Source: a virus. From it: a stretch of DNA of 22,854 nt. Under the pieces are notes generated by a model. It ran no database searches. It was not told the DNA's origin and saw only the letters and a list, made by a program, of their open reading frames with translations. The position numbers and the translations under genes are program-made. The stretch spans positions 1-22,854 of IMG/VR virus record IMGVR_UViG_3300022073_000028; one strand, written 5' to 3'. This document shows, piece after piece, positions 5,829-7,948 of this stretch. Numbering within the stretch: position 1 is the first letter of the stretch; the number at the start of each line of letters is the position of its first letter.

Positions 5829-5917
5829 TTTCATGTGTGTGACATGGGATGTGCCATATCTCACTTAATCCCTTATAGCCTCTCTCGGCGTCTCAAATCT
5901 TCTAGGGGTAGGATTAT

Positions 5918-5933
5918 GCAGGGTCAACCCTGC
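5918..5933. repeat. Near-perfect palindrome GCAGGGT-CA-ACCCTGC
   Basis: Two 7-bp arms separated by two bases, immediately before the first copy of the 14-bp direct repeat. The very short centre suggests a protein-binding site rather than an RNA hairpin. Confidence 0.6.
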
Positions 5934-6084
5934 TGATCGATTCTAGGGGCCTTCTAGGGCGTCTCAGGGGTATGTCTGGGTGATAGCAGGTGTGGCAGAT
6001 GATCTAGCGAGTTAAGGTGCCGAGCTTAGACATAAGATCTATCATCTAGGTGTGTGAGATAGGCCACATTCGCCTGGCTTGGTG

Positions 6085-6127
6085 TACACTCTCAAGGCCG
6101 CTCTGCCGATCTGGCATAGAGAGTGTA
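6085..6127. repeat. 9-bp stem hairpin with structured loop
   Basis: TACACTCTC (6085-6093) and GAGAGTGTA (6119-6127) are perfect inverted arms. The 25-base interior contains a smaller inverted repeat TGCC/GGCA (6104-6107 and 6113-6116). It could fold as RNA or extruded DNA. No T-run follows, so it is not a typical terminator. Confidence 0.55.
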
Positions 6128-6181
6128 GCCCAGAAATGCCGTTTAAAGCCTCCCTATGGCGTCTAGGAGCGCCTTGCAGGG

Positions 6182-6204
6182 TGGGGGCTAGATTTATACC
6201 CCCA
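6182..6204. repeat. G/C-arm hairpin TGGGGG-N11-CCCCCA
   Basis: A 6-bp stem with an 11-base A/T-rich loop that includes one of the TCTAG motifs on the minus strand. It lies between motif copies in the gene-free region. Confidence 0.5.
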
Positions 6205-6230
6205 GCATATTCTGATCGATTCTAGACGCC

Positions 6231-6414
6231 TGCAGGAGCCTAATACACGATCAGCCATCCAGGCGCGGATCACCAGCCCCTATCCTGCTTAGCTAAGCCT
6301 CAGCTATGTGGACAGTGTTGGATACTGTGAGGGGAGAAGGACACGGTAAAAAGAAGAGGGGGGAGCATCAGCCTTCAAGTCTTAGGTACTTAAGTTAACC
6401 TTAGAGACTTAGCA
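6231..6414. other. Gene-free segment with a 12-bp palindrome and a purine-rich strand
   Basis: No reading frame with coding character. GCTTAGCTAAGC (6287-6298) is a perfect palindrome built from the CTTAGC motif that recurs further right. A purine-rich run from about 6329 to 6365 leads into the first CATCAG copy (6366). A similar GGGGAGAAG purine stretch occurs near 7402, also beside CATCAG. Confidence 0.45.
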
Positions 6415-6435
6415 CCGAGCCCTTGAGGGGCTCGG
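6415..6435. repeat. Hairpin CCGAGCCC-TTGAG-GGGCTCGG
   Basis: An 8-bp perfect stem with a 5-base loop, flanked by CTTAGCA on the left and CATCAG on the right. The same stem with the same flanks recurs at 6938-6958, but there the loop is the reverse complement. Confidence 0.75.
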
Positions 6436-6498
6436 CATCAGCCTCATCGGGCTCAGCCGATCAGGCACAGCCCTTAAAGGGGTACACGCCATCAGGGA

Positions 6499-6544
6499 AG
6501 GCTTTCGAGTACGAGGAGCCCTAGCGACGAGTACTCGAAAGCCT
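6499..6544. repeat. 14-bp perfect inverted repeat
   Basis: AGGCTTTCGAGTAC (6499-6512) pairs perfectly with GTACTCGAAAGCCT (6531-6544) around an 18-base centre. This is the strongest hairpin in the window. It is directly followed by a second stem-loop (6543-6560), and no U-run follows. Confidence 0.75.
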
Positions 6545-6560
6545 GAGGGAACACCCTCAG
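6543..6560. repeat. Hairpin CTGAGGG-AACA-CCCTCAG
   Basis: A 7-bp stem with a tetraloop that shares two bases with the preceding 14-bp arm. The 18-bp repeat at 6560 begins at its last base. The two stems together would form a compact double-hairpin in a transcript of either strand. Confidence 0.65.
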
Positions 6561-6577
6561 CACTGATGGGCCTAGCG
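6560..6577 (+). repeat. 18-bp direct repeat, copy 1
   Basis: GCACTGATGGGCCTAGCG recurs at 6913-6930 with a single mismatch. Each copy contains CTGATG, the reverse complement of the widespread CATCAG motif. Confidence 0.65.
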
Positions 6578-6912
6578 TGTTCGGAAAGGACACAGGGGTA
6601 AGGTGTGACAGCTATCCGGGAGTGAAACCTGTTCTGACTAGGGGTTTCAGCCTTAACCACCTGTAAAGGTTACAAGACTCTAAGAAAATTTAAGGAAAAG
6701 TTTAGGTTTGATTTTTGGACCTTTGCCACCAAAAACACCCGTTTACACCCCTCAAACCCGCCTATAGAGCCAAATCCGCCAGTTTGACTCATCCCAGGTG
6801 GCATATGATAGGCTGGACAGGTAGCCAGCTGGACGCAAGGCCGAAATCCGCTGACGCGGCTTTCACCCTTACATTCATCAGTCTACCAAACACTTTAAAG
6901 CTTCAAGGCTTA
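6578..6912. other. Gene-free segment between the two repeat copies
   Basis: No convincing gene. Open frames exist here (for example 6715-6978 from a TTG) but they run through hairpins and have no ribosome site. Short local repeats are visible: GCTGG/CCAGC arms near 6812-6830 and CCAAATCCGC/CCGAAATCCGC near 6770 and 6840. One CATCAG lies at 6876. Confidence 0.4.
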
Positions 6913-6930
6913 GCACTGATGGGCTTAGCG
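6913..6930 (+). repeat. 18-bp direct repeat, copy 2
   Basis: GCACTGATGGGCTTAGCG, one base different from copy 1 at 6560-6577. It overlaps CTTAGCGCTTAGC, whose inverted partner lies at 7663-7677 beyond the A/T-rich island. Confidence 0.65.
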
Positions 6931-6936
6931 CTTAGC
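6922..6936. repeat. 15-bp inverted arm, left (partner at 7663-7677)
   Basis: GGCTTAGCGCTTAGC here is the exact reverse complement of GCTAAGCGCTAAGCC at 7663-7677. The two arms enclose about 0.73 kb that includes the whole A/T-rich island. Confidence 0.65.
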
Positions 6937-6937
6937 A

Positions 6938-6958
6938 CCGAGCCCCTCAAGGGCTCGG
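6938..6958. repeat. Hairpin CCGAGCCC-CTCAA-GGGCTCGG, loop inverted
   Basis: The stem and both flanks match the hairpin at 6415-6435, but the loop reads CTCAA instead of TTGAG, its exact reverse complement. Confidence 0.75.
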
Positions 6959-6964
6959 CATCAG

Positions 6965-7345
6965 TCTTAGGTACTTAAGGATCTAAGTTACTATAAAAGC
7001 TTTAAAGTCTTAAAGTACATATAAAACCTTAACAGTTAAACGTTTAAAGCTTTAAAACTTAACACTACAGTAACAGTTAAAAGTTTATAAACCTTAACAC
7101 CTAAGTTAAGTATAAAACCTTAAAAGCTAACACCTTAAGGATATAAACTTAACATCAGTGTTTAAGACTTTAAAACTTAAAGTAAATATAAAGACTTATA
7201 AACTTTAATACTTTAAGTAACTATAAAACCTTAAAGCTTTAAACACTTAAAGTTAACCATCAGTCTTAAACTTTAATATGATAACCTATAAGTCTTAAAG
7301 CTTATAGGTATTATAATATAATATTATTATATAAGTTATAAAAGT
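6965..7345. repeat. A/T-rich TTAA-repeat island, candidate origin unwinding region
   Basis: From 7021 to 7320 I count 69 G or C in 300 bases (23%), far below the G/C-rich genes around it. TTAA occurs 23 times between 7021 and about 7300, mostly as CTTAA, CTTTAA or GTTAA. TATAAAACCTTAA occurs exactly three times (7020, 7111, 7222). CATCAG copies lie at 7153 and 7258. No reading frame of note exists. A/T-rich repeats beside iteron-like motifs are typical of replication origins, so this is a candidate unwinding element; a partition site is another option. Confidence 0.6.
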
Positions 7346-7662
7346 TTTAGAAGAGCTAAGAGGTTAACTTCTTTACTTCTCTTCTCTTCTTTTCTTCATC
7401 AGGGGAGAAGAGGAACCTTTATCATCAGCGCCGATGGGCTTTCACCGTGTGACTCGTGTGCTTCTAGTCGCAAGCTCCCATCGCACACTCCCCACACTCT
7501 TACACCCGTGTCCCTTTCAAGCTTAGCGTGTTTCACTTCAGGCGTACGGCGTGTCACGCTTAAACCCTTAACATCAGGTAAGACTTAAAGTGTATATTAT
7601 ATGTAGAAGACTTTAAAACCTATAAGATGTTCCTGCTTAGCCTGTGTCCTACACCGCTAGGC
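7346..7662. other. Gene-free segment right of the island with imperfect hairpins
   Basis: A pyrimidine run (about 7368-7396) is followed by CATCAG (7397) and a GGGGAGAAG purine stretch. Further CATCAG copies are at 7423 and 7572. GTGTG-GTGTGC (7447-7461) can pair with GCACAC-CACAC (7483-7497) as a two-step stem. AGCGTG and CACGCT arms lie near 7526 and 7553. CCTGTGTCCT at 7641-7650 recurs inverted near 6588-6597. No gene or RNA family is recognised. Confidence 0.4.
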
Positions 7663-7677
7663 GCTAAGCGCTAAGCC
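7663..7677. repeat. 15-bp inverted arm, right (partner at 6922-6936)
   Basis: GCTAAGCGCTAAGCC, the exact reverse complement of the left arm. It ends the repeat-rich region; from here to the HNH gene the composition returns to normal. Confidence 0.65.
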
Positions 7678-7948
7678 TGAAACGCGAACACACACCCACC
7701 CCCATTTTTCTTTCGCGTCCTCCTTCTTTTTGACACAGCTGGGGGGCGATGTGATCTTTCTCATACCTGTGGGGGGTAGTGGAGAAAACAACCACCCCGG
7801 CACAAACAGAACACCCCCTCAAACGAACAAAACAGTCCCTAGAATCGATCGGCAGGGCATCGGTAGAGTATTCCTACCCCCAACAGTTCCCCGGCCGCTA
7901 GAGAGGCAATGAGAGGCTCGCAGGGGTCATAGGTGATCGGGGGACATG
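7678..7948. other. Leader region before the HNH gene
   Basis: No gene is convincing. A TTGACA hexamer at 7730-7735 has only a poor -10 (GATCTT at 7753-7758), so a rightward promoter is possible but unproven. Two G-rich tracts (CTGGGGGG near 7739, TGGGGGGT near 7770) stand close together. A 60-codon open frame from TTG 7730 lacks a ribosome site. Confidence 0.35.

Follow-up and report, generated by a model that had tools for sequence, protein, structure and literature searches.

Which role could a 2.2-kb stretch without a conserved open reading frame (ORF) have in a phage of Cutibacterium acnes, where it lies between the leftward early genes and the rightward HNH endonuclease gene, next to the cohesive-end site (cos)? 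The question was raised by IMG/VR virus record IMGVR_UViG_3300022073_000028, whose 22,854 bases are called the window here. The window is a fragment of a Pahexavirus (PA6-like C. acnes phage) with the right and left genome ends joined at cos, and the stretch corresponds to about 27,274-29,387 of PA6. A previous sequence-only reading of the window had placed a gene-free stretch between the divergent early genes and the cos end, had seen no integrase and had reasoned that such DNA must be kept for some use. The position is correct, and an integrase is absent from both the window and PA6. The gene-free stretch is larger than that reading proposed, beginning at 5728 and not at 5865.

The region is probably a cis-acting control region common to C. 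acnes phages, which would act on transcription and replication. As sequence patterns, the promoter-like elements that face outward at the two edges are firm, and so is a polarity switch of replication type inside the region; at the centre an easily melted phased TTAA array adjoins an almost invariant hairpin block. The region itself has been described before, since a 1.4-kb noncoding region of PA6 and relatives, presumed to be regulatory, is already in the literature (PMC3652107; PMC3094311), together with promoters predicted in its A/T tract (PMC3094311). What is new is its parts: the edge motifs, the phased array, the invariant block and the strand-bias switch do not appear in the prior descriptions found, the original PA6 and Marinelli papers being outside this comparison.

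Conservation of a non-coding region

The alignment contained 54 right ends, namely the window and 53 relatives. A longer and near-identical copy of the window (IMGVR_UViG_3300020613_000007, L005, 29,541 bp; 99.9% identity over the aligned right end) was excluded from it. Megablast with the region matched at least 231 phage records and blastn 233, all of them C. acnes phages and mostly with 79-86% identity. Among the ORFs of at least 30 amino acids in 5728-7945, none was kept in frame with a coding substitution pattern in most of the 53 relatives, and the presence of coding ORFs inside the region was rejected for lack of a conserved frame. The coding controls passed, with the gp43 homologue intact in 52 of 53 relatives, HNH (start codon at 7946 or 7949) in 53 of 53, and third-position changes richest in both. 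The annotated PA6 genes gp45-gp47 sit on non-conserved frames, and their counterparts are annotated at differing places among the phages.

In 50-bp steps, the majority identity lies mostly at 0.8-0.95, comparable with that of the adjoining genes. Peaks of 0.95-0.99 are found in 7250-7299, 7350-7399 and 7550-7599, and dips only at about 6000-6050 and 6900-7250. The region is conserved, non-coding and under constraint; this conclusion is firm, and the coding-level conservation across phages agrees with the earlier argument that the region is kept for use. Tolerated accretion of functionless repeats, a satellite-like growth into spare head volume, would account for the variable copy numbers of array and hairpins and for the natural deletions, but it is highly improbable considering the coding-level conservation over most of the 2.2 kb, which is higher in 7250-7440, and the fixed positions of the motifs.

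The region measures 1866-2196 bp among the phages, with the exception of PAS50 (L035), where it is 1270 bp. PAS50 is without window positions 5855-6030, including the element L1 (Table 1), and without about 6363-6902, a loss located mostly between direct repeats, and it retains L2, R, a shortened array and the invariant block. A deletion of roughly 500 bp in this phage was reported by Lood and Collin (PMC3094311), in agreement with the alignment. PAS50 was induced from a C. acnes isolate and its pseudolysogenic behaviour is reported to be the same as that of PAD20 (PMC3094311). Since the most repeat-rich third of the region is the part missing from PAS50, that part is dispensable for an origin and for episome maintenance alike. 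The record of Cutibacterium phage CAP 7-1 (PQ198869, L062), labelled "complete", has no control region, with HNH at its start and the leftward genes at its end; this gap is probably an assembly break at the repeats.

Table 1. Features of the putative control region and its surroundings, in window coordinates.
Feature	Position	Strand	Remarks
gp43 homologue	5419-5727	-	First leftward early gene, left boundary of the region; PHROG 919
Non-coding control region (putative)	5728-7945		2218 bp; no conserved ORF; conservation profile; homologues in at least 231 phage records
Sigma70-like promoter (predicted)	5767-5828	-	Palindrome CGCTCA..GAGCG at 5828-5810, TTGAC at about 5804-5800; ahead of the gp43 homologue
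L1 (promoter-like)	5907-5944	-	AGAATCG-N27-TACC with CATAAT/TATAAT; faces the early genes; core intact in 52/54
L2 (promoter-like)	6184-6223	-	AGAATCG motif, TATAAA box, shorter spacing, GGGGG/CCCCC hairpin; faces the early genes
Direct repeats	6378-6979		17-bp exact repeats 6378-6394 and 6963-6979; 37-bp hairpin-bearing repeats 6408-6444 and 6931-6967
Branched fold (predicted)	6480-6600		CATCAG..CTGATG closing stem, 14-bp stem, small third hairpin; DNA fold z = -5.5
Phased AT-rich array	6960-7345		TTAA-centred 7-8-bp units, (A)CTT(T)AAAG(T); G+C 0.22-0.31
A/T-only tract	7309-7334		Divergent promoters predicted by Lood and Collin (PMC3094311 Table 1)
Nearly invariant block	7329-7427	+	Polypyrimidine tract and two consecutive hairpins; identity 0.99 in 7350-7399
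R (promoter-like)	7841-7878	+	AGAATCG-N27-TACC, TATTCA box; faces HNH, ends 67 nt before its start codon
HNH endonuclease gene (PA6 gp48)	7946-8251	+	Pfam HNH 3.6e-11; sole gene with opposite strand bias
cos, TCGTACGGCTT	8303-8313	+	Ends joined in the window; strand bias reverses abruptly; overhang sequence in PMC11480721

Outward promoter-like elements at both edges

The 12-mer GATCGATTCTAG is found three times in the window, always inside the region, and nowhere else within one mismatch. Read outward, it is part of AGAATCG-N27-TACC, with a -10-like box just before TACC. These promoter-like motifs had escaped the sequence-only reading. Nearly all 54 phages carry three copies of the AGAATCG element per genome at fixed positions, and PA6 and some relatives have one more, with a clear TATAAT, about 60 nt upstream of gp42 (AGAATCGCCTAG..TATAATCATACC in some phages). 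In 52 genomes, the left 15.6 kb contained no copy, and 0.11 copies are expected per shuffled PA6 genome. A scan of viral contigs for the edge motif gave, beyond the C. acnes phages, only isolated matches, such as L181 and L185, at about chance level for that collection; in L185, DnaA boxes adjoin the match. Vegetative promoters of C. acnes present a mapped TAnnnT -10 box and a weak -35 (PMC3848588), and since the box of the edge motif is of this TAnnnT type, it is counted in favour of a promoter function. Two inverted arms of 43 nt, 5928-5970 and 7815-7857, are 77% identical and are better explained as outward copies of one motif. A mobile element with terminal inverted repeats was rejected because there is no conserved ORF and the region is present in 54 of 54 aligned phages.

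The predicted sigma70-like promoter ahead of the gp43 homologue joins a palindrome to TTGAC, and a second copy of this combination is placed at 5054 on the minus strand (within 5010-5060), ahead of gp41. The right ends of all 53 relatives hold one or two copies, ahead of gp43 and gp41 only, and none was found in 52 left halves, with 0.0 expected in shuffles. The palindrome, CGCTCA-N-GAGCG, is likely the operator of a putative regulator. PA6 gp24 is a sigma-region-4-like protein (Pfam Sigma70_r4 1.3e-05), so a phage-directed promoter class may exist. A generic scan for sigma70 promoters and terminators found no more than in shuffles.

Altogether, conserved promoter-like elements face outward ahead of genes in both directions, as divergent promoters do (L1, L2, R, the copy upstream of gp42 and the TTGAC copies). 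L1, L2 and the operator-bearing TTGAC promoter would drive the early genes leftward, and R would drive HNH rightward and then, across the joined cos of circular or concatemeric DNA, the late genes. The late genes are included because the annotated first late gene of PA6, gp1, starts 2 nt after cos, at base 2, which would put the late promoter to the left of cos and make late transcription cross the joined ends, unless the true start is downstream.

A strand asymmetry that switches inside the region

The plus strand of PA6 (L059) shows a G+T excess of about 0.3 in each kilobase between 1 and 27 kb, whether the genes are structural and rightward or early and leftward. All 44 genes up to gp44 are G/T-positive on this strand at 4-fold sites, with pooled GC and TA skews of 0.47 and 0.87 in the rightward genes and 0.61 and 0.67 in the leftward ones. 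The bias is reversed in HNH (-0.87 in PA6, -0.80 in the window). The 4-fold picture of the window is that of PA6, one gene counted in a wrong frame aside, and this extreme bias, independent of gene direction, extends over 1-27,300 of PA6 and over 1-5,900 and 8,314-22,854 of the window. A GC-skew ring has been drawn in one paper, with no discussion of it in the passages found (PMC12733950).

The mean bias of 52 genomes is +0.30 at 5750, declines to 0 by about 6150, remains between near 0 and -0.17 until about 7240, fluctuates about 0 (+0.16 to -0.05) in about 7240-7700, is clearly negative from about 7750 and passes from -0.33 to +0.44 across cos. The cumulative G/T bias reaches its maximum inside the region in 54 of 54 genomes (median 6195, which is also the value of most genomes; range 5895-6435); its minimum is at cos. 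The modal maximum, 6195, coincides with L2.

Mycobacteriophage Bxb1 has the same divergent layout and no such strand bias, so the bias is not caused by gene direction. The same comparison makes less likely a cause in gene class, by which early genes would be C/A-rich and late genes G/T-rich on their coding strand, but which the C/A-rich early genes of rightward-organised relatives would still fit.

Under the usual sign rule, G/T enrichment marks the strand that was exposed as lagging template. A maximum in the region and a minimum at cos then point to departure at cos and arrival in the region and, if this conventional rule is assumed, it is more likely that the forks leave cos and meet in the region. 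Replication forks would thus start or end in the control region, arrival (termination or pausing) being likelier than departure by the sign rule, and fork departure would be at or near cos.

Repeats, phased array and invariant block

The sequence-only reading had listed several kinds of repeats, and most of them hold when compared with local dinucleotide shuffles. CATCAG (12 copies versus 0.85), GGCGTCT (4 versus 0.19), CTTAGC (11 versus 2.1) and TTAA (40 versus 19) are in excess; TCTAG is weakly above local composition (12 versus 6.9), at a density 10 times that of the rest of the window. The 18-bp direct repeat that it named exists with a length of 17 bp. Its several hairpins can be recognised in an exact 21-nt inverted pair (6415-6435/6938-6958) and a 14-nt stem (6499-6512/6531-6544), and its TTAA island is more regular than was stated, with a phasing of 7/8 bp. 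In one relative (L012) both arms of the 14-bp stem are altered and pairing is preserved, a compensatory change. The small CTGATGG element is inverted, or the loop lost, in several relatives, with loop deletions in L008 and L047.

The array was found in 54 of 54 genomes with its phase conserved, a length of 149-460 bp and a G+C content of 0.22-0.31. Over these genomes, TTAA-to-TTAA spacings of 7 bp occur 191 times and those of 8 bp 261 times, versus about 15 each in dinucleotide shuffles, further peaks fall near multiples of the unit, and CTTAAAG/CTTTAAG/CTTTAAAG adds up to 408 copies versus 27 expected. Tandem Repeats Finder gave periods of 8 and 35 for the array.

Episome maintenance, which had been part of the earlier hypothesis, would have the phased TTAA array act like a centromere, holding the circular genome in pseudolysogens. 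The universal presence of the array, with conserved phase and variable length, would be compatible with such a site, and circular phage DNA has been reported in carrier cells (PMC11480721). Nevertheless, positive support ends with the array: no plasmid record resembles the region, and the PA6 annotation and the 18 early proteins that were scanned contain neither a gene for partition (a ParA/ParM-type partner) nor one for plasmid replication (Rep). Carriage has been reported as unstable and curable by passage (PMC3094311), yet a high-stability group has been described (PMC11480721). This part of the hypothesis is not sustained and seems quite improbable.

Concerning the invariant block, the alignment fold has an energy of -24 and the fold of the window sequence a z of -1.9. 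Placed beside the A/T tract, the block might act as a site for unwinding and the initiator, or it might specify a structured RNA. A non-coding RNA locus, with a rightward transcript from the A/T tract and the two-hairpin block as regulatory RNA or leader, is a somewhat doubtful alternative. It would explain the invariance, the predicted hairpins and the adjoining predicted promoters, but the block is too invariant for a covariation test, belongs to no Rfam family and folds with that modest z in the window. The only Rfam match was to snR190, a snoRNA family of yeast, and its 18.6 bits do not reach the threshold of that family; the tRNA scan gave none.

Fork departure or fork arrival

The sequence-only reading had also proposed a replication origin. 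The constraint and the polarity switch make a link with replication reasonable; the sign of the asymmetry is opposite to that of an origin, and there is no cluster of DnaA boxes. As an origin, the region would unwind at the TTAA array, the invariant block would be the initiator site and bidirectional forks would leave. This can be held as a tentative possibility considering the strand-asymmetry switch inside the region, the 300-400 bp of 22-31% G+C in a 54% genome, as in AT-rich unwinding elements, the invariant block beside the A/T-only tract, and the DnaB-like helicase and primase encoded by the phage. However, the asymmetry is the reverse of that left by departing forks, as far as the usual sign rule applies. 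A rightward fork would make HNH G/T-rich, but in both the window and PA6 the 4-fold sites of this gene are C/A-rich, and a single 8/9 match at 6307 is all that the region offers as a DnaA box.

On the other hand, the region might be a terminus or fork barrier. Replication would begin at cos, from a cut or nicked end or primed by recombination, and run outward, the leftward fork halting in the region after about 2 kb and the rightward fork arriving after about 27 kb. Both the general idea and this course of the two forks are possible but far from assured. The sign of the asymmetry is correct for it, the abrupt switch at cos versus the gradual one in the region is the usual contrast between ori and ter, template switching would account for the short inversions of hairpins and the deleted loops seen among relatives, and the phage has exonucleases. 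Against it, no barrier protein is known, a PAS50-type deletion takes out a third of the hairpins and the switch at cos could have another cause.

By analogy with mitochondrial DNA, replication could instead be of a strongly asymmetric displacement type from cos, with one strand single over most of the 27 kb, but this is unlikely. In that same joint reading, and as unlikely, the region would be the second-strand start or the fork stop.

Several points weigh against a control region acting on both transcription and replication. Every promoter call is a pattern in the sequence, the -10 box of R (TATTCA) is weak, and TerS may start downstream of position 2, in which case a late promoter would have about 60 nt of room. 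The test of mutation direction from rare variants and 4-fold sites suffered from too few sites and unequal diversity. Finally, the reversal at cos beside HNH is also seen in Philonius and MargaretKali, which are without the control region; the asymmetry thus belongs in part to cos rather than to the control region. The switch at cos is therefore wider than Pahexavirus, and the switch inside the region is particular to it.

Comparison with known systems

The right end of Bxb1-type mycobacteriophages is similar in having a leftward early operon, short divergent genes and then the genome end, and the helicase, primase and exonuclease of C. acnes phages are annotated as similar to Bxb1 proteins. 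Bxb1 differs in lacking a comparable 2-kb gap, the AGAATCG motif and the G/T strand bias. The unrelated actinobacterial siphophages Philonius (L138/L139) and MargaretKali (L140/L141) share an HNH gene beside cos with strongly C/A-rich 4-fold sites (-0.84 and -0.88) and a reversal across cos, but their early genes run rightward up to cos and there is no 2-kb control region. A reversal at cos with a C/A-rich HNH may be a general mark of replication or end processing linked to cos.

A prophage-like relative (G001, IMGVR_UViG_2876314173_000001, L135/L136), a 37.6-kb contig, has a weaker cos reversal. It has packaging, capsid and tail genes in common with these phages (TerL and portal 73-74% identity; HNH gene 59%), a different right arm and no control region. 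A capsid search in genome contigs found no relative.

The vertebrate mitochondrial control region is likewise a single non-coding stretch with outward promoters beside replication signals, in a DNA with a similarly strong strand bias independent of gene direction. It is not homologous, and the likeness of the phage region comes without evidence of a displacement loop or continuous single-strand displacement. Plasmid origins of the P1 oriR type carry short heptamers phased at about 7 bp in AT-rich DNA, like the TTAA array; the phage array differs in sequence, is far longer and more degenerate, and has no identified initiator gene.

Implications for C. acnes phages

The region bears on two questions about C. 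acnes phages: how their replication begins, and how they persist as circular pseudolysogens although they have no integrase. It also offers exact predicted positions, with transcription starts at about 5907, 6189 and 7878, fork arrival or departure at about 6195 and fork reversal at cos. The TA skew of up to 0.87 at 4-fold sites implies that the mutational history of one strand has been very different, something that most simple bidirectional phage models would not predict. If the displacement-type reading were true, it would represent a mode of replication new to tailed phages with cohesive ends.

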